Origin: Treponema sp.
Lineage (GTDB): Bacteria > Spirochaetota > Spirochaetia > Treponematales > Breznakiellaceae
Direction: 5' to 3'
DNA length: 37,971 nt
Assembly: GCA_031256195.1 (NCBI GenBank)
Contig: JAIRRB010000164.1
Location: 1-37,971, forward strand
Below, piece by piece: positions 812 through 37,218 of this stretch; the first letter of the stretch is position 1, and every line of letters starts with the position of its first letter. The notes beneath the pieces are model-generated. The model was not told the origin of the DNA. It ran no database searches and saw only the letters and a program-made list of their open reading frames with translations. The translations under genes and the position numbers were made by a program.

Positions 812-2098
812 ATGTTGGATATCGGTCCAATTCACCGCAGGGAATACGAAATAGATATTGGCCGAACCAGGGGGGAATCCCGGCCTGGCCGGACCCCGGC
901 AGGGGATTCCCGGAAGAAAACACCATCCAGCCGGGCTTCGGCGGGGAATTCCAGGAAACCCGCGGCAGGAAAACAGGCGGCAAAGGCCGTTGAACCGGTA
1001 ATTATAGCCCAGGCGCCCGGCAGAATTCACTTTTTGGGCGAACACGGCGATCCTTTTGCCGGATTATACCTTTCAGCGGCCATAGACCGCTGGATGAAGG
1101 TGGCGGTAAGCGCCCGAAAAGACAGTTCCCTGCGTTTTTATGCCGCCAATTTGGGCGAACGTAAACGAACAACCCTGATAAACCTCAAATACAAGCGGGA
1201 AGACCGCTGGGCAAACTATATAAAAGCGGTTATTCCTCTTTTTATTGAACTTGGTTATCCGGTGAAGGGTTTGAATTTTACCGTAAGCGGCGATATTCCC
1301 CAGCAGATTGGATTGGCGTCTTCTTCGGCCATCGAGGTTGCCGCGGCGGTCGCCCTGCGGGGGTTTTTCCGTGCGAAAATAAGCGACCGGGAACTGGTCA
1401 AGCGGCTGGCCGCGGCCCATGTGTCTTTTTTTGAGGAAAATCCCAACCTGGCGGATTACCTTATCGGGCTTTCGGCGCGGAATGACCAGCTTTTAATCGT
1501 TGATGAATCAAGCCTTTCGGTTACCAAAATCAAATCGCCTTTCTCCCGCTGTAAATTTATCCTTATGGATTCCCGCGTTCCCCGTCTGGGGGTTGATACT
1601 GAACTGGCGGCTCGCAGGGATGAACTCAAGGCGGGGCTGGAAATGCTGTCGCAGGGCCGTGAGGGGGCAAGTTTCCGGGAATTCGCCACTATGGACATTA
1701 TGGATTCCATGGGAAACCTTCCCGAAGAGATTCGCCGCAGGAGTCTGCACGTTGTCCAGGAGATTCGCCGGGTACTTGACGCAGGGGATTACCTTCAGCG
1801 CGCTGATTTACCGGGTTTTTCACGGTTGATTTTCCATTCTCATGAAAGCCTGCGGGATTTGTATGAGGTTAGCTGCCCTGAAACTGACTGGATGGTCAAA
1901 CGGGCGCAAGAGACGATTGGCGTGCTGGGAGCGCGGATGACGGGGCAGGGTTTTGGGGGCTGTACCTATACCATCATTAAAAATGAGGCGGTTAAGGGAT
2001 ACCGGGAGCGGCTTGATGATTATGAACGGATATTCGGTTTTCGGCCGGGGATTTACGAGGTAAAGATTGCGACCGGAAGCAGAATCGTACCGGAGTAG
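812..2098 (+). CDS. galK: Galactokinase (GHMP kinase)
   Basis: GHMP-family sugar kinase, most like galactokinase, which phosphorylates galactose at C1 in the Leloir pathway. All three family motifs are visible: the galactose-binding signature APGRIHFLGEHGD (from residue 68), the ATP-binding GLASSSAIEVAAA loop (from 167) and GARMTGQGFGGC (from 373). The Asp in SARNDQ is the likely catalytic base. The fold is complete at 428 aa. The first motif sits about 40 residues further in than in E. coli GalK, because an Arg/Pro/Ser/Gly-rich stretch (about residues 18-58) separates a normal-looking start (HRREYE) from the kinase core. That stretch is encoded by GC-rich inverted repeats (873-911), so it may be an inserted element. 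It is first in a run with surE, 6 nt away. Other GHMP sugar kinases are possible substrates, but the third motif is galactokinase-like. Confidence 0.85.
   Translation: MLDIGPIHRREYEIDIGRTRGESRPGRTPAGDSRKKTPSSRASAGNSRKPAAGKQAAKAVEPVIIAQAPGRIHFLGEHGDPFAGLYLSAAIDRWMKVAVSARKDSSLRFYAANLGERKRTTLINLKYKREDRWANYIKAVIPLFIELGYPVKGLNFTVSGDIPQQIGLASSSAIEVAAAVALRGFFRAKISDRELVKRLAAAHVSFFEENPNLADYLIGLSARNDQLLIVDESSLSVTKIKSPFSRCKFILMDSRVPRLGVDTELAARRDELKAGLEMLSQGREGASFREFATMDIMDSMGNLPEEIRRRSLHVVQEIRRVLDAGDYLQRADLPGFSRLIFHSHESLRDLYEVSCPETDWMVKRAQETIGVLGARMTGQGFGGCTYTIIKNEAVKGYRERLDDYERIFGFRPGIYEVKIATGSRIVPE
873..911. repeat. Inverted repeat inside the galK 5' end
   Basis: GGGAATCCC (873-881) and its reverse complement GGGATTCCC (903-911) flank a 21-nt GC-rich loop. 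A related GGGGAATTCC follows at about 945. All are inside the reading frame and encode the low-complexity basic/proline-rich segment that separates the galactokinase start from its core. Confidence 0.45.
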
Positions 2099-2104
2099 CC
2101 AGAA

Positions 2105-2881
2105 ATGAGGATTTTACTGACTAACGATGACAGTATCGCTTCCCCGGGAATCACCCTGCTTGCCGCCGCCCTGCGCGCGGCGGGCCACCGGGTGTTTGTG
2201 GTCGCCCCGGAAACTGACCGATCCGGGGTTTCCCATGCGATACAATTTTTCACCAGCCCCTGCAAACTGACCAAAATGGGAGAAGATACCTGGATTTGCG
2301 GGGGAACTCCGGCGGACTGCGTGGTAATTGCCCTTATGGGGGGGATTGAGGAACTGTGTTTAACGGATGAATCGGGAAAAAAAAAGCAACCGCCGCCCAT
2401 CGACCTGGTTATTTCCGGTATAAACCGGGGGGCAAATCTGGGAACCGATATTGTGTATTCAGGCACGGCGGCGGCGGCGCGGCAGGGGGCCTTCTTCAAA
2501 ATTCCATCTTTGGCGCTTTCCCTGATTGAAGGAGATGAATGGAACTGGGACATGGCCGCCGCTTTTGCCGTGGAGCGCCTTGACCAGATGATTTCCCGCT
2601 GGAAGCCCGATTCCTTTATCAATGTGAATATCCCCAATCAGCGGAAAAAACCTTCGGCGCTGGTTCACGCTTTTCCCTCTTTACGGTATTATAATGATAA
2701 TATAGAGGTGTACCCGGCGCCGGATGGCTGCCAGTACTGTTTTGTGAAGGCGGGGGTTATCTCCGCGGAGCCGGAGCGGGGTTCCGATTATGAAGTAACG
2801 GCGGGGAATAACGCGTCGCTGAGCGAGGTCTTTATTCATCCGCTGCTGCTGGAATCGGTTAAGGAAAGGGGAGGGGGATAA
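2105..2881 (+). CDS. surE: 5'-nucleotidase SurE
   Basis: SurE family metal-dependent nucleoside 5'-monophosphate phosphatase, 258 aa, a normal length. The N-terminus MRILLTNDDS carries the paired metal-binding aspartates. ETDRSG has the conserved Ser after the first sheet, and SGINRGANLG holds the metal-binding Asn. YSGTAAAAR is also typical. The usual Gly after NDD is Ser here. The protein is cytoplasmic. The start has a GGAG about 10 nt upstream, overlapping the galK stop. The stop TAA shares its last A with the ATG of the following TPR gene (TAATG), so the two are translationally coupled. Identification is firm; the physiological substrate is not shown by the sequence. Confidence 0.92.
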   Translation: MRILLTNDDSIASPGITLLAAALRAAGHRVFVVAPETDRSGVSHAIQFFTSPCKLTKMGEDTWICGGTPADCVVIALMGGIEELCLTDESGKKKQPPPIDLVISGINRGANLGTDIVYSGTAAAARQGAFFKIPSLALSLIEGDEWNWDMAAAFAVERLDQMISRWKPDSFINVNIPNQRKKPSALVHAFPSLRYYNDNIEVYPAPDGCQYCFVKAGVISAEPERGSDYEVTAGNNASLSEVFIHPLLLESVKERGGG

Positions 2882-3738
2882 TGGCAGGAAAACAGCCGAA
2901 TCGGAGCGATACTCCAGGTGAAAAGCCCGTTATAAACGAAGAGTTTGAATCATATTCACCCACCAAGACCTGGAAATGGGATTTTCCGGATGCATTACGG
3001 CGGCAAGCAAAAGAACCGGGGCCGGTAAAGGCAAAAAAAACCGAAGAAGATGTTTCGTCCGGCAACAGGCTGAAAAAAGGGATGCGCCTGTACCGGATAA
3101 AACGGTGGGAAAGCGCGCTGGAAGAATTTCTTCTGGTTGAAACGGAACATTTTAACCACGAAGAACGGGCGGAACTTGCCTATCATTTGGGCCTCTGCTA
3201 TACCAAGCTGGAACGTTTTGACGAAGCCCTGCTGTATTTTGAACAGGTACTCACCATCAGCAACAGTCCGCTGTGGACTTACCAATGCCGCCTGATCCTT
3301 GCCTACATTTACATTATAACCGGACGCACCGCGCTGGCGGAAAACGAACTGAGCCGCCTTCAGGACGGCGGTCTTGAATCGGCGATGCTGTACAATACAT
3401 TGGCCTATGCCGAATATATTCAAAAACATTATCCGGGCGCGATAGAGTTATACGAAAAGGCGCTGGATATTGAAAAAGACAATACTACCGCCCTGAACAG
3501 CATGGGCTATATTCTTGCCGATACGGGAATGGATACCGTCAGGGGTATGCGGCTCTGCCGCAAGGCCGTGGAAAAAAATCCCCGCAACGCGGCCTACCTC
3601 GATTCTCTGGGCTGGGCTTCTTACCGCTGCGGAAAACTGACCGAGGCCCGTAACTGGCTGCGCCGCGCGCTGGAAATCGCCCCGCAGGAGCAGGAAATTA
3701 AAGAGCATCTCAGGATAGTAAGCGAGGAAGCGGTATGA
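2881..3738 (+). CDS. TPR-repeat protein
   Basis: A 285-aa soluble protein built mainly of tetratricopeptide repeats. After a charged, probably disordered N-terminus (residues 1-60), helical repeats run from about 62 to the end. The clearest are those containing ERFDEALLYFEQVL, KHYPGAIELYEKALDI and GKLTEARNWLRRALEIAP. There is no signal peptide or membrane segment, so a cytoplasmic scaffold or adaptor role is likely; no enzymatic motif is seen. It starts within the surE stop codon (TAATG), and its own stop overlaps the next start (ATGA at 3735-3738). The chain surE-TPR-exported propeller protein is therefore one translationally coupled unit. The partner is unknown; the adjacent exported protein also begins with a TPR pair. 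Confidence 0.85.
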   Translation: MAGKQPNRSDTPGEKPVINEEFESYSPTKTWKWDFPDALRRQAKEPGPVKAKKTEEDVSSGNRLKKGMRLYRIKRWESALEEFLLVETEHFNHEERAELAYHLGLCYTKLERFDEALLYFEQVLTISNSPLWTYQCRLILAYIYIITGRTALAENELSRLQDGGLESAMLYNTLAYAEYIQKHYPGAIELYEKALDIEKDNTTALNSMGYILADTGMDTVRGMRLCRKAVEKNPRNAAYLDSLGWASYRCGKLTEARNWLRRALEIAPQEQEIKEHLRIVSEEAV

Positions 3739-23351: not shown

Positions 23352-24293
23352 ATGGAAGATCAGGCGGAAAAGCTGCGTGAAATAATGCGGCACAAGAAGA
23401 ATTCATCAGGCATATCGGGATACTCCGGGGAGCGGACGGGGAAAAAGAACCAGGCGGCCAATGCCGAAGGTTCAGCCCTGCAGCGGGATAACAGAAAGAC
23501 CCGCATTATCACCGTTACTTCCGGCAAGGGCGGCGTAGGAAAAACCAATCTTTCCGTCAATATGGCCCTGGCCTTTGCCCGTCTCGGCAAAAAAGTCGTG
23601 GTCATGGATGCCGACCTGGGGCTGGCCAATGTCAATGTTATGCTTAACATAATCCCCAAATATAACCTGTACCATGTCATAAAAAAGCAAAAAAGCATCC
23701 ATGATATTCTCGTGGAAACCGAATACGGCATTTCCATAGTGGCGGGAGCTTCGGGCTTTTCCCAGATAGCCAATATGAGCGAGCAGGAACGGCAGGATTT
23801 TATCAGCGAACTTGACACCCTTTCCTTTGCCGACATCATTATCATAGACACCGGCGCCGGGGTTTCCAGCAATGTCCTGGATTTTATCGCCGCCGCCGAT
23901 GACGCGATTATCGTTACCACGCCGGAACCGACGGCAATCACCGACGCGTATGGTATAATCAAGATAATCGCCATGGAATACGATCCGGTCAACATAGGGC
24001 TTAAACTCGTGGTTAACCGGGCAAAGGGGGCGGCGGAGGCAAAAAGCGTCGCCGACAGAATGACCAATATTGCCGGACAGTTTCTTAACCTCAAACTGGA
24101 TTATCTGGGCTTTATCTACGATGATCAGTCTGTACCCACCTCGGTACGTCAGCAAAAGCCGTTTATGGTGATTGATCCCAAGTGCAAGGCAAGCCTGTGT
24201 ATCCAGCATTTGGTAGAGCGAATGGACAAAAACAGATTGGTTGAACCCGCGGGTATTGGCGCGATGTTCAAAAAGATATTTAACCGTACGTAG
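23352..24293 (+). CDS. flhG: MinD-like ATPase FlhG (FleN/YlxH)
   Basis: A 313-aa ParA/MinD-family ATPase that restrains flagellar number by acting on FlhF. It has a basic N-terminal tail of about 50 residues with a helix resembling the FlhF-activating region (QAEKLREIM), the deviant Walker A SGKGGVGKT, the switch DADLGLANVNVML, IIIIDTGAG (switch II) and a C-terminal amphipathic region. It is spaced 3 nt from flhF. Confidence 0.94.
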   Translation: MEDQAEKLREIMRHKKNSSGISGYSGERTGKKNQAANAEGSALQRDNRKTRIITVTSGKGGVGKTNLSVNMALAFARLGKKVVVMDADLGLANVNVMLNIIPKYNLYHVIKKQKSIHDILVETEYGISIVAGASGFSQIANMSEQERQDFISELDTLSFADIIIIDTGAGVSSNVLDFIAAADDAIIVTTPEPTAITDAYGIIKIIAMEYDPVNIGLKLVVNRAKGAAEAKSVADRMTNIAGQFLNLKLDYLGFIYDDQSVPTSVRQQKPFMVIDPKCKASLCIQHLVERMDKNRLVEPAGIGAMFKKIFNRT

Positions 24294-24318
24294 TACGAAC
24301 GCTCACAGGAGGGCGTCA

Positions 24319-25059
24319 ATGTTTAATGCAAAGTGGGGTCTTATATGCGGCGGGGCGGCCTTTGTACTTGCCTTTGTAATCAGCCTGTTGTTGGGCCATA
24401 CCAGCCTGCCGGTCGCATTGGTACGTGCGGCAGGTTTTGCCGCCCTGTTTTTTGGCATGGGAACCGGCATCTGGGTGCTTGTCAATATTTTCATCCCCGA
24501 ACTGCTTGAAACGCGGGACAATTCCTCAGATGATGTTTTTTCCGGAAAATCAACCGGTGCGCGGGTAAATATCACGCTGGATGATATGTCCGATACCGCC
24601 CTGCCGGGAGACATGCCGGCGGCCGTACCAGATGCAGGCGCCGGAGGGGCGGACACTGACCATGTAGGTGATTTTAACGATTTGATTTCCCTGTCAATCA
24701 ACCGCGATCAGGATATAGACCAAAACTTCGCGACAGGTTATACTGAAAAAGAACGGGAAGAATTTACCCCGGTGTTTGACAATTCGGCCAACAATGTCAA
24801 AATTGAAGGGTTGGGGGATTTTTCCATGGATTTTGGAGCATTCGTTCCTGAAGGCGGCAAAGCGGAGGATACAGACCCTCTCACGGACCCGTTTTCGTTC
24901 ATGTCGGGCGGTACGGGCGATTCCTCAGGTTTTGAGGAAACTTCCGCGCCGCAGCGAAAGAGTTCCAAAAGCAAGACAGCGCAGTTGGATGGGGATTTTA
25001 ATCCCAAGGATATTGCCGCCGGTATACGGACAGTGCTGGAAAAAGACAAAAAAGGATAG
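24319..25059 (+). CDS. Two-TM acidic protein between flhG and fliA
   Basis: A 246-aa protein not matched to a named family. Two membrane spans occupy about residues 6-28 and 34-58 (LICGGAAFVLAFVISLLLG; AAGFAALFFGMGTGIWVLV), followed by a long acidic, probably disordered cytoplasmic region and a conserved-looking end (DFNPKDIAAGIRTVLEKD). The ATG at 24319 with AGGAGGG upstream is preferred over in-frame upstream codons that overlap flhG. From memory, treponemes keep an unnamed gene in this position between flhG and the sigma factor. It ends 3 nt before fliA. A role in flagellar regulation is inferred from position only. Confidence 0.8.
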   Translation: MFNAKWGLICGGAAFVLAFVISLLLGHTSLPVALVRAAGFAALFFGMGTGIWVLVNIFIPELLETRDNSSDDVFSGKSTGARVNITLDDMSDTALPGDMPAAVPDAGAGGADTDHVGDFNDLISLSINRDQDIDQNFATGYTEKEREEFTPVFDNSANNVKIEGLGDFSMDFGAFVPEGGKAEDTDPLTDPFSFMSGGTGDSSGFEETSAPQRKSSKSKTAQLDGDFNPKDIAAGIRTVLEKDKKG

Positions 25060-25062
25060 CTT

Positions 25063-25851
25063 ATGGGAAACGCCATCCCGGATGATAAAACTGAAGAAGA
25101 ACGCTGGCAGGAATACCGTAAAACCCGGAATCCGGCTCTTCGCGAGGCTTTTATCAAACAGTACGCCCCGCTGGTAAAGTATGTCGCCGGAAAAGTCGCC
25201 ATGGGTATGCCCAGCAATGTAGAATTTGACGATTTGGTGGGTTTTGGGGTTTTTGGCCTGATTGACGCCATTGATAAATACGATCCCGAGAAGAACGTCA
25301 AATTCAAAACATATGCGGTAACCCGTATACGGGGGGCGATTTTCGATGAACTTCGCCAGATTGACTGGGTTCCCCGTTCCGTCCGGCAAAAAACCCGTGA
25401 AATAGAGACCACCATAAGTTCCCTGGAAGCCCAGTTGGGGAGAACCGCTTCGGATCAGGAGATTGCCGGCGCGCTGGGGATGAACGAAGACGAATACCTT
25501 AAAACCATTCAAAAAATCTCCGGAACCTCAATATTGAGCCTGAACGACGTATGGTTTTCCGGCGATGAAAAAGACCGGGTGTCCATAGTAGATTCAATCG
25601 AATCGCCTTCCAGCCTGAACCCCGATGTAATGGTAGAAAAGGAGGCAATGCGCCAGGTGATAATCGCCGCCATTAACGAACTTCCCGACAAGGAAAAAAA
25701 GATACTGATACTCTACTATTACGAGGACCTTACCCTCAAGGATATAGGCAGGGTGCTGGAAGTTACCGAATCCCGCGTTTCCCAGCTCCATACCAAGGCC
25801 ATTCTTCATCTGAGATCAAAACTGACCAATATTCGCAAAGGTATTGTATAA
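25063..25851 (+). CDS. fliA: Flagellar sigma factor FliA (sigma-28, WhiG-like)
   Basis: Sigma-28 family factor for late flagellar and chemotaxis genes, 262 aa, full length. Region 2 contains FDDLVGFGVFGLIDAIDKYD and ARIRGAIFDELR-like TRIRGAIFDELRQIDWVPRS, diagnostic of FliA/WhiG. Region 3 follows, and region 4 has the HTH LTLKDIGRVLEVTESRVSQL. AAAGGA precedes the ATG. A GCCGATAA box with CAAAGTTT upstream lies 24 bp after the stop, so this factor probably drives the next gene. No FlgM anti-sigma factor is in the window. Confidence 0.95.
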   Translation: MGNAIPDDKTEEERWQEYRKTRNPALREAFIKQYAPLVKYVAGKVAMGMPSNVEFDDLVGFGVFGLIDAIDKYDPEKNVKFKTYAVTRIRGAIFDELRQIDWVPRSVRQKTREIETTISSLEAQLGRTASDQEIAGALGMNEDEYLKTIQKISGTSILSLNDVWFSGDEKDRVSIVDSIESPSSLNPDVMVEKEAMRQVIIAAINELPDKEKKILILYYYEDLTLKDIGRVLEVTESRVSQLHTKAILHLRSKLTNIRKGIV

Positions 25852-31039: not shown

Positions 31040-33547
31040 ATGCGTTCTTTTATACAAAAAACAAAAATGATTATCAACCGTTGCGCACAGGTATTGTTGG
31101 CGTTGCCGGCTTTTGCGCTGATGGTGATTTCGGGTTATCTGTTTGTAAACACTATTGGACACGGAAATTCACAGGGGAAAACAAGAGACGCGGTTTCATC
31201 CGGTATGCCGGGGCCGGAAACGATACTGGCCGGCATAAGTATACTGCTGGCGGCAATACTCATCATCATTCTGCTGCGCATTATAAGAGAAAGACAAAAA
31301 TTATTTGATACTACCATTGCAAAGACACGCGAAGCGGATGATTCAAAAGAGGCTGTCAATATTCTGGAAAATATTCTGAACGGACTGGATTCCATGATCT
31401 TTGTTACTGTTCCCGAAACCGGAGAAATACTTTTTATAAATAAATGGATGAAGAAACATTATAACATCAAAAATGACTGTGTTGGGCAGCTTTGCTATAC
31501 GGTTCTTCAGGAAGGAATAAATGAACGATGTGTTTTTTGTCCCTGCCACCGGCTTGATAAAGAACCGAACAGCGTTGTCGTATGGGAAGAACGCAGCACC
31601 CTGACAAAATGTATATACCGCAATACGGACCGGTATATGGAATGGCATGACGGCAGAATTGCCCATATCCAGCATTCCGTTGATGTAACAGAATTAATTG
31701 CCTCGAAAGAACAGGCGATTCAGGCCAGCGTTGCAAAGAGCAATTTTTTGGCAAAGGTAAGCCATGAAGTACGCACACCGATGAACGCCATTTTGGGCAT
31801 TACCGAAATTCAGCTGCAAAATGAAAAAATGCCGCCGGACATACAGGATGCGCTGGGTGAAATTTACAATTCGGGTTATTTGCTGCTGGGTATTATTAAC
31901 GACATACTGGACCTGTCCAAAATAGAATCAGGCAAACTGGAACTGGCGCCGGTCAACTATGACGTTCCAAGTCTGATTAATGATATTGTTCATCTGAATG
32001 TCATGCAATCTGACAGTAAGTCAATTGATTTTCATCTTCAGGTAGATGAGAACATCCCAACAACCCTGTTCGGCGATGAACTGCGTATCAAACAGATTAT
32101 GAATAATCTGCTTTCCAATGCGTTTAAGTATACGGATTCAGGCAATGTCTCGCTGTCGGTTACTACCGAATACGCGGAAAAGGAAGAGCGGACAGCGCTG
32201 GTATTCCGTGTAAGCGATACCGGGCAGGGCATGACTACAGAACAGATAGACCGGTTGTTTGATGAGTATACCCGCTTCAATACGAAAGCCAACCGCACAG
32301 TCATAGGTACGGGTCTGGGTATGTCCATTACGAAACACCTTGTCCAGATGATGAACGGCGAAATTACAGTGAAGAGCGAACAGGGTAAAGGTTCAGTGTT
32401 TACCGTGCGGCTGCCGCAGGGAACCGTCGCCGGATCGGAAGTGTTGGGCAGGGAATTGGCGGAAAATCTGGAGCAGTTCCGTCTTGGCAAGGCGGTGCAG
32501 CTGAAAAAAGCGCCGCAAATTATACGCGAGTATATGCCCTACGGCAGAATTTTAATTGTAGACGATGTAAATACGAATCTGTATGTCGCCAGGGGACTCC
32601 TGGCCCCCTACGGTTTATCGGTTGAAACCGCCACAAGCGGGTTTGAAGCCGTTGAAAAAGTCAAGGGCGGCGCAAACTATGATATTATTTTTATGGACCA
32701 TTTCATGCCGAAAATGGACGGTATGGAAGCGGTAAGAATCATACGCGAATGGGGTTATACGCAACCCATTATCGCGCTGACAGCTAACGCTCTGGCGGGG
32801 CAGGCGGAAATGTTTTTGGAAAACGGTTTTAACGGATTCATTTCCAAACCGATAGACATACGCCAGCTTAACGCCGCATTGAATAAATTGGTGCGCGATA
32901 AATATCCGTCTGAAACGATTGAAGCCGCACGGCGGCTCAAGGAAGGCTTAAGAAAATATGCCGCCGACAGCGAGTTTTCGGCGTCTACAGACCCGGAACT
33001 GGCGGAAAATTTCATACGGGATGCCGATAAAGCCCTTGCCATGCTGGAAACAATACACACCAACAATTACCGTAGAATCGATGACGTACTGGTGTTTGTA
33101 CTCCATGTTCATGCGATGAAAAGCGCGCTGGCGAATGTCGGCGAAATAGCGCTTGCTGACATCGCGTCGAATCTGGAACAGAGGGGACGGGAGGGAGATA
33201 CTGCGGCAATACTGGCCGGAGCGCCGGCATTTCTGACTTCACTGCGGGCGGTAATCGAAAAAATCAGACCAAAAGACGGAAACGGAAAAATTTCGGACAT
33301 TGTCTGGGACGATGTCTGGAAGGCGCATCTGTGCGAAGAACTGCTCGTCATTAAAACGGCGTGTATGACCTATGACGAAAGAAACGCCAATGCGACGCTA
33401 ACCGGACTGCGGCAAAAAACATGGCCGCCTGAAGTCAAAGAACTGCTTGCCGCCACTGCCGAACATTTGCTGCACAGTGAATTTGAAGAAGCCGCGGCCC
33501 TTGTAGAAAATTATGTAAATAACAAGATTAACCTCGATACCGCCTGA
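31040..33547 (+). CDS. Membrane hybrid histidine kinase (PAS-HisKA-HATPase-REC-HPt)
   Basis: An 835-aa sensor kinase with an internal phosphorelay. Two membrane spans (about 16-36 and 62-82) are followed by a PAS-like domain (105-212) with a Cys-rich insert (CVGQLCYTVLQ and RCVFCPCH), which suggests redox or metal sensing. HisKA has His242 in KVSHEVRTP. The ATPase domain has NNLLSNAFKY, DTGQGM and GTGLGMS. The receiver has Asp553 in FMDHFMPKMDG with LTAN and SKPID. The C-terminal HPt has His691 in HAMKSALANVG. There is no Shine-Dalgarno at the ATG, and the strong promoter is so close that the message is nearly leaderless. The next gene is a shortened duplicate. The output regulator is not in the window. 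Confidence 0.9.
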   Translation: MRSFIQKTKMIINRCAQVLLALPAFALMVISGYLFVNTIGHGNSQGKTRDAVSSGMPGPETILAGISILLAAILIIILLRIIRERQKLFDTTIAKTREADDSKEAVNILENILNGLDSMIFVTVPETGEILFINKWMKKHYNIKNDCVGQLCYTVLQEGINERCVFCPCHRLDKEPNSVVVWEERSTLTKCIYRNTDRYMEWHDGRIAHIQHSVDVTELIASKEQAIQASVAKSNFLAKVSHEVRTPMNAILGITEIQLQNEKMPPDIQDALGEIYNSGYLLLGIINDILDLSKIESGKLELAPVNYDVPSLINDIVHLNVMQSDSKSIDFHLQVDENIPTTLFGDELRIKQIMNNLLSNAFKYTDSGNVSLSVTTEYAEKEERTALVFRVSDTGQGMTTEQIDRLFDEYTRFNTKANRTVIGTGLGMSITKHLVQMMNGEITVKSEQGKGSVFTVRLPQGTVAGSEVLGRELAENLEQFRLGKAVQLKKAPQIIREYMPYGRILIVDDVNTNLYVARGLLAPYGLSVETATSGFEAVEKVKGGANYDIIFMDHFMPKMDGMEAVRIIREWGYTQPIIALTANALAGQAEMFLENGFNGFISKPIDIRQLNAALNKLVRDKYPSETIEAARRLKEGLRKYAADSEFSASTDPELAENFIRDADKALAMLETIHTNNYRRIDDVLVFVLHVHAMKSALANVGEIALADIASNLEQRGREGDTAAILAGAPAFLTSLRAVIEKIRPKDGNGKISDIVWDDVWKAHLCEELLVIKTACMTYDERNANATLTGLRQKTWPPEVKELLAATAEHLLHSEFEEAAALVENYVNNKINLDTA

Positions 33548-33717: not shown

Positions 33718-35046
33718 ATGAACTCTTTTATACAAAAAGTACGGAAATTTATTAATCGGCATACCCATTCAGTTGATATAACTGAATTGATCGCCGCAAA
33801 AGAACAGGCTATCCGGGCCAATAACGCAAAGAGCAGCTTTCTGGCAAGGATAAGCCACGAAATACGTACGCCGATGAGCGCCATCCTGGGTATCACTGAA
33901 ATTCAACTGCAGGATGAAACCCTGTCGTCTGACATGCAGGAATCCCTGGGGAAAATTTACAACGCGGGTTATGTGCTATTGAGTATTATCAACGATATAC
34001 TGGATTTGTCCAAAATAGAAGCGGGCCGGCTGGAAATTACACCGGCCGGTTATGATGTTACCAGCCTGATAAACGACATTGTTCATTTAAATGTTATAGG
34101 GTATGACCATAAACTGCTGGAATTCGGCCTTCAGGCAGACGAAAGTATTCCCAAAACATTGTTGGGCGATGAATTGCGCATCAAACAGATTCTGAACAAT
34201 CTGCTTTCCAACGCATTCAAATATACGGAACGCGGCAGCATTTCACTGTCGGTCAGCGCCGAATACGCGGGACAGGAAAATCAGATAACACTGGTGTTTC
34301 GTGTAAGCGATACCGGACAGGGCATGACTGCGGAACAAACAGAAAAACTGTTTGACGAGTATAACCGCTTTAATACGGAAGCCAACTGCGCAATCGAAGG
34401 TACGGGCCTGGGTATGAGTATCACCAAACAGCTCGTCCAATTGATGAACGGTGAGGTTGTAGTGGAAAGCATACCGGGCAAAGGTTCGGTGTTTACCGTG
34501 CGGCTGCCGCAGGGGACTGTCGCCGGTTCGGGCCTGTTGGGTAAAGAAGCGGCGGAAAATTTCAGCCGGTTTTATCTTGGCAAGGCGTCGCAAATAAAAA
34601 AGGCGCCGCGCATTATACGCGAGTATATGCCCTACGGCAAAGTTTTAATTGTAGACGATATGGAAATAAATCTGGATGTTACTGAAAGGCTGCTGGTTCC
34701 CTACGGCCTGAAAGTTGAAACCGCTACCAACGGATTTGAAGTAATTAACAAAATCAAAAACGGCGTAACCTGGGACATTATATTTATGGACCATTTCATA
34801 CCAAAAATGAACGGCATAGAAACAACAAAAATCATTCGCAAATTGGGGTATACGCAGCCCATTGTCGCGCTGACGGCCAACGTCCTGACAGGGCAGGCGG
34901 AAATGTTTTTGGCAAACGGTTTCGATGAGTTTATTCCCAAACCGATAGACACACGTCAACTGAACGCTGTACTGAACAGACTGATACGCGACAGGTATCC
35001 GGCTGAAACGGTTGAAGCCGCACGGAAACATACCGGCAGCACTTAA
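33718..35046 (+). CDS. Shortened tandem copy of the hybrid kinase (HisKA-HATPase-REC)
   Basis: A 442-aa soluble hybrid kinase derived from the upstream gene. The first 14 codons match its start (SFIQK), then the sequence jumps to HSVDITELIAAKEQ, equivalent to residue 212 of the long protein, so both membrane spans and the PAS domain are missing. His47, the ATPase boxes (NNLLSNAFKY, DTGQGM, GTGLGMS) and receiver Asp358 are intact. Both phospho-sites are offset by exactly 195 residues from the long copy. The protein stops after the receiver (EAARKHTGST), losing the HPt. With no sensor of its own it may act with the long kinase, possibly through that protein's HPt. No clear Shine-Dalgarno precedes the ATG. 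Confidence 0.9.
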   Translation: MNSFIQKVRKFINRHTHSVDITELIAAKEQAIRANNAKSSFLARISHEIRTPMSAILGITEIQLQDETLSSDMQESLGKIYNAGYVLLSIINDILDLSKIEAGRLEITPAGYDVTSLINDIVHLNVIGYDHKLLEFGLQADESIPKTLLGDELRIKQILNNLLSNAFKYTERGSISLSVSAEYAGQENQITLVFRVSDTGQGMTAEQTEKLFDEYNRFNTEANCAIEGTGLGMSITKQLVQLMNGEVVVESIPGKGSVFTVRLPQGTVAGSGLLGKEAAENFSRFYLGKASQIKKAPRIIREYMPYGKVLIVDDMEINLDVTERLLVPYGLKVETATNGFEVINKIKNGVTWDIIFMDHFIPKMNGIETTKIIRKLGYTQPIVALTANVLTGQAEMFLANGFDEFIPKPIDTRQLNAVLNRLIRDRYPAETVEAARKHTGST

Positions 35047-35078: not shown

Positions 35079-35107
35079 TTGACAGGCTTCAATAACCGTA
35101 GGAAAAT
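35079..35107 (+). promoter_or_regulatory. Likely promoter of the hydrogenase-like chemoreceptor
   Basis: A perfect TTGACA (35079-35084) is followed 17 bp on by GAAAAT (35102-35107), a 4-of-6 match to a -10 box. GAGGT (35117-35121) is 6 nt before the ATG. The gene is therefore probably transcribed separately from the kinase 81 bp upstream. Confidence 0.45.
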
Positions 35108-35127
35108 AGTATTATTGAGGTAAAAAA

Positions 35128-37218
35128 ATGGGAAAAACACAACTTGCTCCGGTTATTCGGATCGATGAAGAAAAGTGTGTAAATTGTTACGCCTGTATTA
35201 CCGGCTGTCCGGTCAAGTATTGCATGGATGGTTCAGGAAAAAAACTGCAAATAAATCCCGATCTTTGCATCGGCTGCGGAAACTGCATTACTGTTTGTTC
35301 CCACAAGGCCCGCAGTCTTATAGACGACACCGCTCGCTTCATGAATGATCTAAGACAGGGTAAAAAAATTATTGCCATAGTTGCCCCGGCCATCGCCTCA
35401 TTTTTTCCCGAACAGTTTCTTAATTTTAACGGCTACCTTAAATCACTGGGGGTTGAAGCGTTTTTTGACGTGAGTCTGGGGGCGGAACTTACGGTCATAT
35501 CCTATCTTGACTACATCCAGAAAAAAAATCCCCGGACGGTAATTGCCCAACCCTGTCCGGCGATTGTCAGTTTCATTCAGATTTACTGCCCTAAATTGCT
35601 GCCCTACCTTGCGCCGGCGGACAGTCCCATGCTGCATACCGTGAAAATGGTCAGAGAGTATTATCCCGAATATAATAATTACCAGATAGCGATAATTTCC
35701 CCCTGCATTGCCAAACGGCGGGAATTTGATGAAACCGGCCTGGTGGAGTACAACGTTACCATGTATGCGCTCAAAAACCTTCTGGACGAACGCGAAATAA
35801 ACCTTTCTTCTTTTAAGCCGGTGGAATATTCCGGGGAACACGCGGAGCGGGCGGTAGGGTTCTCCATTCCCGGAGGCTTGATGGATACTGCCGAACGTTT
35901 TGTTCCGGGTATCAGGCGGCAGACTCACAAGATTGAAGGGGTTCATACCATTTATCCCTATCTGGAAGAAATTGCCGAACTGCTGGATACCGATGCCGAA
36001 TTATCACTGTTGATAGACTGTCTGAATTGCGAAAAAGGCTGCAACGGCGGGTCAGGTACGGGGAACGCCGTAAAACCGCAGACGGTGCTTGATAACCCTG
36101 TCCGAAAACGCAGGACCAAGCTTGAAGAATACCATAAACCGGAAAAAGGAGAATGGGTATACAAAAAATACCACAAGACCCTGAACAAATTCTGGAAGAA
36201 TAATCTGTATGACCGCAGCTACCTTAATCATTCGTCCAATAATACCATTAAGCATCCGGGCGAGACTGAACTGACTGAAATTTACCGCAGCATGAAGAAA
36301 TTCGAAAAGAAAGATTTATACAACTGTACAAGCTGCGGTTACGGAAGCTGCAAAGCAATGGCAACGGCAATTTACAACAAACTCAACAAGCCGGAAAATT
36401 GCGCTCACTATACCCTTGCCATGCTTAAGGAAGAAATGGGCGCGGAGGAACTCAATCGTCTGCTCCAGGAACACATCAGCCGCTCATCCGCCCTCGTTGA
36501 AGGAATAAAAAAACTGGTATATGAAATGAGCGCCAATATTGGTTCACAGGCAGCGGCCATCGATGAGTCTTCGGCATCGACCAAAAAAATGATAGGGTCG
36601 ATTAAAGACACTTCGGATATTTCCCTGAATAAACAGGAATCCATAAAGGGTTTGATAGAAAACGCCGCGCGGGGTCAGGAATCCATGCGGGGAACCATTC
36701 AATCGGTTGAGGGAATTTCTCAATCGGTAGACGGCATAGTGCAGGCGATTAAAATAATCAGTTCAATAGCGGCCAATACCAACCTGCTGTCCATGAATGC
36801 GGCGATTGAGGCCGCCCATGCCGGAGAAGCGGGCAGGGGCTTCGCGGTGGTTGCCGGTGAGATACGCCGCCTTTCGGAAAGTACCAGGGAAAATTCGCTG
36901 AATATTTCACGGACACTGAAAAGCATCATTGACGGGATAGCCGTTGCCGAAAAACAATCAGGCGATACCGGCAGCCGGATTACCACAATGTCCAAAGAGA
37001 TAGACAGCTTTGCTGAAACAATGACCAGTTTGATCAGTACCTTTAACGAACTGTCGGAGGAAAGCAGTGAAATTACCACCGCACTGGACGGTCTTCATAA
37101 TCAAAGCGCTACGGTAAAAACCAGCTATGCGGAAATACTGTCGATGACTGATAAACTGCATGTCACCATATCTGAGATGACTACCATATTAAAGGAAAAG
37201 ACGATAGCGCAGGTTTGA
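35128..37218 (+). CDS. Soluble [FeFe]-hydrogenase-like chemoreceptor
   Basis: A 696-aa fusion. Residues 17-27 and 47-57 hold two ferredoxin-type CxxCxxCxxxC [4Fe-4S] sites. Residues about 65-340 are an iron-hydrogenase large-subunit domain with all four expected H-cluster cysteines: Cys143 (AQPCPAIV), Cys193 (SPCIAK), Cys301 and Cys305 (LNCEKGC). The Cys that delivers protons in catalytic enzymes (first Cys of TSCCP) is Pro142, as expected for a sensor rather than a turnover enzyme. Residues 400-425 form a further Fe-S motif (CTSCGYGSC, then NC). Residues about 430-696 are a methyl-accepting chemotaxis signalling domain with tip [20 protein letters not shown] (from 550). There is no membrane span. 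It probably senses H2 or redox state in the cytoplasm and signals to CheA/CheW. [FeFe]-hydrogenase sensors are known in termite-gut treponemes. Confidence 0.9.

Follow-up and report, generated by a model that had tools for sequence, protein, structure and literature searches.

What does a bacterium sense with a protein that carries, in a single polypeptide, the H-domain of an [FeFe]-hydrogenase and the signalling hairpin of a methyl-accepting chemotaxis protein (MCP)? Such a protein is encoded at positions 35,128-37,218, on the plus strand, of the 37,971-nucleotide stretch of Treponema sp. DNA analysed here (the window; contig JAIRRB010000164.1 of assembly GCA_031256195.1), and a preliminary description of the sequence had taken it for a soluble chemoreceptor for H2 or redox state. 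The architecture, the cytoplasmic location and the loss of the relay cysteine in that proposal are borne out below, and comparison of the sequences supports a sensory rather than a metabolic role, while H2 as the ligand is something that we infer.

Architecture of the receptor

The open reading frame is real, and its domain matches lie far beyond chance. It starts with ATG, encodes 696 amino acids and stands alone, preceded by an 81-bp gap that holds a possible promoter of its own together with a GAGG ribosome-binding site (35,079-35,120; TTGACA, 17 bp and a weak -10 element, GAAAAT). In order, the protein comprises two [4Fe-4S] ferredoxin-type sites, an H-domain, a Cx2Cx4Cx16C Fe-S site and an MCP signalling hairpin, all read from the plus strand. 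The ferredoxin-type sites (residues 10-61; 35,155-35,310) are matched by Fer4-type Pfam models, and a letter-by-letter check found both of their cysteine sets in place (C17/20/23/27 and C47/50/53/57). The H-domain (Fe_hyd_lg_C, PF02906; residues 79-308, 35,362-36,051; E = 1e-28) likewise has all four of the H-cluster cysteines that had been claimed for it, C143, C193, C301 and C305. By alignment these fall into three motifs: L1 (35,542-35,568), where P142 replaces the catalytic cysteine next to the ligand C143; L2 (35,692-35,724), with the ligand C193 between S191 (Met353 in CpI) and K196 (Lys358); and L3 (36,016-36,051), with the ligands C301 and C305, L299 (Met497) and an extra cysteine, Cys298. 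In group A enzymes, Lys358 hydrogen-bonds a cyanide of the [2Fe] site.

The further Fe-S motif described at residues 400-425 proved to be exactly Cx2Cx4Cx16C (C400/403/408/425; 36,325-36,402; PF04060, residues 398-426, E = 1.5e-6), and the helix of the coiled-coil hairpin begins directly past it (residues 426-696; 36,403-37,215; MCPsignal, PF00015, residues 511-671, E = 3e-29). The hairpin tip, which forms the contact region for CheA and CheW (about residues 545-585; 36,760-36,882), is intact and, as the preliminary description had held, complete: it shares 26 of 42 residues with the hairpin of the E. coli receptor, and phmmer matches the hairpin to that of a Thermotoga maritima receptor (PDB 2CH7) over 244 residues with no gap. 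Because the maximum Kyte-Doolittle average over 19 residues is 1.43, the receptor is without a membrane span and was rightly described as cytoplasmic.

Structure prediction, proposed earlier as a way to look for an H-cluster pocket, returned an [FeFe]-hydrogenase fold for residues 1-428 (AlphaFold2, pTM 0.82), with Z scores of 32.2 to CbA5H (Foldseek E = 3e-17) and about 30 to CpI. In the model of the full-length protein, a single helix runs from residue 426, right past the Fe-S site, into the long hairpin; pLDDT is low there for the ferredoxin part, which is better predicted in the model of residues 1-428.

Other Spirochaetota and other phyla also have full-length homologues that keep this order of domains, so the fusion is not an artefact of assembly. 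A scan of genome contigs located such relatives, with 39-55% identity, in Spirochaetota, Bacteroidales/Prolixibacteraceae, Melioribacteraceae and Desulfoluna limicola, and Pfam assigned to them the H-domain, the Fe-S site and the MCP domain. The window's own genome encodes another such receptor, which shares 62% identity with the first and is cut by the start of its contig (contig C224, L002/L201, 1-837).

Upstream of the receptor gene, the window encodes two similar hybrid histidine kinases in tandem (31,040-33,547 and 33,718-35,046), the second of which has neither the N-terminal half nor the Hpt part, a pattern that would fit a duplication. We considered the pair as partners of the receptor and rejected them, as the synteny is not kept in relatives. 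A MinD-family ATPase and a FliA/WhiG sigma factor encoded at 23,352-25,851 suggest that the same window contains a motility gene cluster.

Pocket residues, class assignment and outputs

Eight pocket residues (P142, C143, S191, C193, K196, L299, C301 and C305) are invariant among 61 aligned members, and L251 is kept in 66 of 66 aligned clade members; the equivalents of P142, S191, L299 and L251 in CpI are Cys299, Met353, Met497 and Val423, respectively. In L3, G307 varies (G/R/C/A/Q) in HydG-bearing and HydG-lacking members alike. At the position of the TSC relay cysteine of the catalytic group A and B hydrogenases (CpI Cys299) the receptor has proline, as had been noted for residue 142, and at that of the group D relay Glu252 it has L251, a position mapped via CpI Val423 with TamHydS itself outside the alignment. 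It shares with group D the replacement of Met353 by Ser/Thr (S191) and the C-terminal Cx2Cx4Cx16C (C400-C425). Since Leu251 stands where TamHydS has Glu252, and a Pfam scan of the receptor found no PAS domain past the Fe-S site, the receptor belongs, as far as its residues and domains can tell, neither to group D nor to PAS-type C1.

A quick maximum-likelihood tree of H-domains, which covered groups A, B and C1 and the receptor clade with L103 and NARF-like proteins left aside, placed the MCP, bare and SpoIIE forms together on one side of a branch with an SH-aLRT of 99. The phylogeny suggested in the preliminary description thus set the receptor apart from the catalytic groups A and B, but also apart from the sensory PAS-type C1, whose representatives in the rows L053, L054, L064 and L065 have glycine at the Met353 position. 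This kind of receptor already has a name: HydDB lists [FeFe] group C2 as 'chemotactic (putative)' and as a proposed H2 sensor (PMC5037454), and we assign the window receptor provisionally to C2 from the link between H-domain and MCP, independently of the HydDB classifier.

The module formed by the H-domain and the Fe-S site is present in 191 of the 394 Treponematales genomes (E<=1e-140), where most of its reading frames are about 700 amino acids long, which makes the family a common one, found in about half of the genomes sampled from that group; part of the sampled genomes are MAGs. Outside Treponematales it is sporadic in Bacteroidota, whose forms have a shorter MCP part at the C-terminus, in Ignavibacteriota and in Desulfoluna. 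Within the clade the module may end in an MCP, in a histidine kinase (a 912-residue protein with the kinase ATPase domain; L103, 1,501-4,239, genome G211), in SpoIIE (L044, 502-2,658) or in no output at all, the bare forms (L038, L041, L043 and L046) lying beside HAMP/GAF sensor proteins.

Maturation genes and the content of the pocket

The assembly to which the window belongs (2.47 Mb in 249 contigs, 81% complete) encodes all three of the maturases for which a search had been proposed, HydE (557 bits), HydF (435 bits) and HydG (612 bits). It also contains two HydA genes of group A3 type, with ligand motifs intact in the parts that could be read and one of them cut by a contig end. On a further contig (C207, L015; ORF 1,447-2,934, minus strand), a HydA-like subunit is encoded beside a HydB-like gene; its motifs (SACSAGG, VSACIAQK and CPRTDSQQAC) have lost the H-cluster ligands, and it is probably a hydrogenase-derived subunit that holds no H-cluster.

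Among relatives, the receptor gene of five Treponema (L161-L165) is either enclosed by a hydE/hydG/hydF cluster or sits at its edge, and no hydrogenase-like gene was detected beside the receptor in these clusters. In a sixth (L196) it lies next to hydE and runs off the contig end, and other HydG-bearing Treponema have hydEFG genes with no receptor nearby. HydG, counted at E<=1e-80 only, is present in 41 of 88 high-quality carriers of the receptor versus 20 of 96 non-carriers (odds ratio 3.3, p = 3e-4, uncorrected for kinship). This enrichment, the homologues linked to hydEFG, the genome's own maturases, the intact ligands and fold and the invariant pocket all support a receptor that reads H2 at an H-cluster. 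Counted against it are the 47 of the 88 carriers from which HydG is absent, the absence of HydE from nine tested relatives and the failure to find CheA, to which we return below.

The lack of HydG also speaks for the main rival of H2 sensing, in which the H-domain holds the cubane only. The [4Fe-4S] clusters would then act as a chain that senses ferredoxin or the redox state inside the cell and relays it to the MCP hairpin, and the receptor would serve energy taxis. HydG is likewise absent from 22 of the 36 carriers that are at least 97% complete, all nine of the HydG-less relatives tested lack HydE too (9/9), and on the tree the presence of HydG changes at least nine times while the receptor stays. 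That incomplete MAGs are the sole cause is unlikely, as two-contig genomes at 99% (G082 and G133) also lack HydG. As this applies to roughly half of the high-quality carriers in Treponematales, not every member can be assumed to have an H-cluster; and since conservation of the pocket is the same in HydG-lacking as in HydG-bearing genomes, with no decay seen in the former on alignment, conservation alone is no proof of one.

We nevertheless rejected the loss of HydG as proof that an H-cluster is missing, because 21 of the 47 HydG-less carriers have strong group A matches (a further 22 have only weaker PF02906 matches, in the group B-like score range, and four have none). In the group A copies read from HydG-less genomes, the ligand motifs of L2 and L3 are intact, as in G030, G037, G041, G052, G109, G120 and G151 (the HydG-less genomes with intact L2/L3 copies are in rows L141, L142, L143, L112, L113, L118 and L125), which could reflect either an alternative maturation or hydrogenases without an H-cluster. 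The lack of HydG in carriers is, in itself, ambiguous; the invariance of the residues that contact the diiron site and the position of receptor genes inside hydEFG clusters speak against a receptor with [4Fe-4S] clusters only, and we regard it as unlikely. A broader view of the family, as a general redox or H2 receptor with or without the canonical HydEFG, would have the pocket of about half of the carriers filled via another maturation route or by [4Fe-4S] only, and the sensor outliving its cofactor pathway; this is conceivable, though we hold it doubtful.

Several observations accompany these counts. Across high-quality Treponematales, [FeFe]-hydrogenase homologues occur in 178 of 198 genomes and HydG in 69 of 198. 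Four rows (L111, L112, L123 and L137) hold a group A-like HydA in which serine takes the place of the L1 ligand Cys300. In two genomes, both without HydG, the receptor gene is interrupted by a single in-frame stop, which may reflect decay or an assembly error (G157, C21:35,500-36,780; G324, C29:106,064-107,359).

From hydrogen to swimming, and known systems

On balance, we lean towards a soluble H2 chemoreceptor with an H-cluster matured by HydEFG, acting on CheA and CheW. The H-cluster would bind H2 or oxidise it slowly; as the relay cysteine of group A and the relay glutamate of group D are both missing, turnover would be low and the reduced state would be held, as in characterised HydS proteins. 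A conformational change could then be handed on by the C-terminal Fe-S subdomain (residues 398-426) to the first MCP helix, the hairpin tip would transmit it as a shift in CheA activity, adaptation would fall to CheR and CheB, and the level of H2 would thereby bias swimming. We prefer this conformational route over a redox relay because in TamHydS the C-terminal cluster is not reduced under H2, and H2 induces a change in secondary structure (PMC13104023). Searches of an open-access library yielded no experimental test of, or functional data on, any receptor of this kind.

H-clusters react generically with CO and O2. This chemistry, together with a clade that has neither of the proton relays seen in groups A and D, would also suit a receptor whose H-cluster binds an inhibitor gas (CO, O2 or NO, and not H2) and mediates avoidance. 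However, TamHydS, the nearest characterised kind, has a low affinity for CO (PMC10407848), and the receptor is accompanied by genes of hydrogen metabolism, so that we consider sensing of such a gas improbable.

As to the output, the window genome encodes CheW, a CheW-CheR fusion and CheX. A search of the 81%-complete assembly did not turn up CheA; its contig C31 starts 42 bases ahead of the CheW-CheR gene, at the place that CheA occupies in relatives. CheW-domain proteins are encoded in all 21 tested genomes with an MCP fusion, the only one of 26 tested genomes without a CheW domain bears the SpoIIE output, and in G138 cheB adjoins the receptor gene; these observations support an H2 chemoreceptor. 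HydS proteins do keep a low catalytic activity (PMC8163306), which would fit a slow catalytic hydrogenase that is merely scaffolded on a coiled coil and has no function in taxis, but the catalytic relay residues are absent, the intact MCP tip is conserved across phyla and CheW-domain proteins accompany the fusion in all 21 of those genomes, and we give this idea very little credence.

If the favoured reading is true, H2 would steer the swimming of Treponema via a chemoreceptor, and the location of the receptor gene in the cofactor-building cluster of six related Treponema makes such H2-guided swimming a testable idea. Copies linked to hydEFG and copies in genomes lacking HydG offer a natural pair of test cases for the need for a diiron site, which could settle whether group C2 proteins sense H2 at all.

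H2 sensors with H-domains were reportedly described from termite-gut treponemes by Ballor, Paulsen and Leadbetter in 2012 (Microb Ecol 63:282), whose abstract is said to have already suggested chemotaxis for them. TamHydS (group D, M2e) resembles the window receptor in its two ferredoxin clusters, H-domain and Cx2Cx4Cx16C site (PMC8163306, PMC10407848) and in having serine for Met353, leucine for Met497 and no relay cysteine (PMC8163306). It differs in the relay Glu252 that replaces Val423 (PMC10407848), where the receptor has Leu251, and in having alanine for the relay cysteine and no output, where the receptor has proline and an MCP. TmHydS (group C, M2f) shares the H-domain, the C-terminal Fe-S site and a sensory output (PMC8163306), whereas its type has a PAS output, glycine at Met353 and a separate clade. 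The T. maritima cytoplasmic MCP Tm1143, the protein of PDB 2CH7, has the signalling hairpin that aligns with the receptor's, without the hydrogenase module. In HydDB group C2, a putative H2 sensor, an H-domain is tied to a methyl-accepting chemotaxis output (PMC5037454); to that listing, the present analysis adds the direct fusion, the clade of its own, the swapping of outputs and the linkage to hydEFG.
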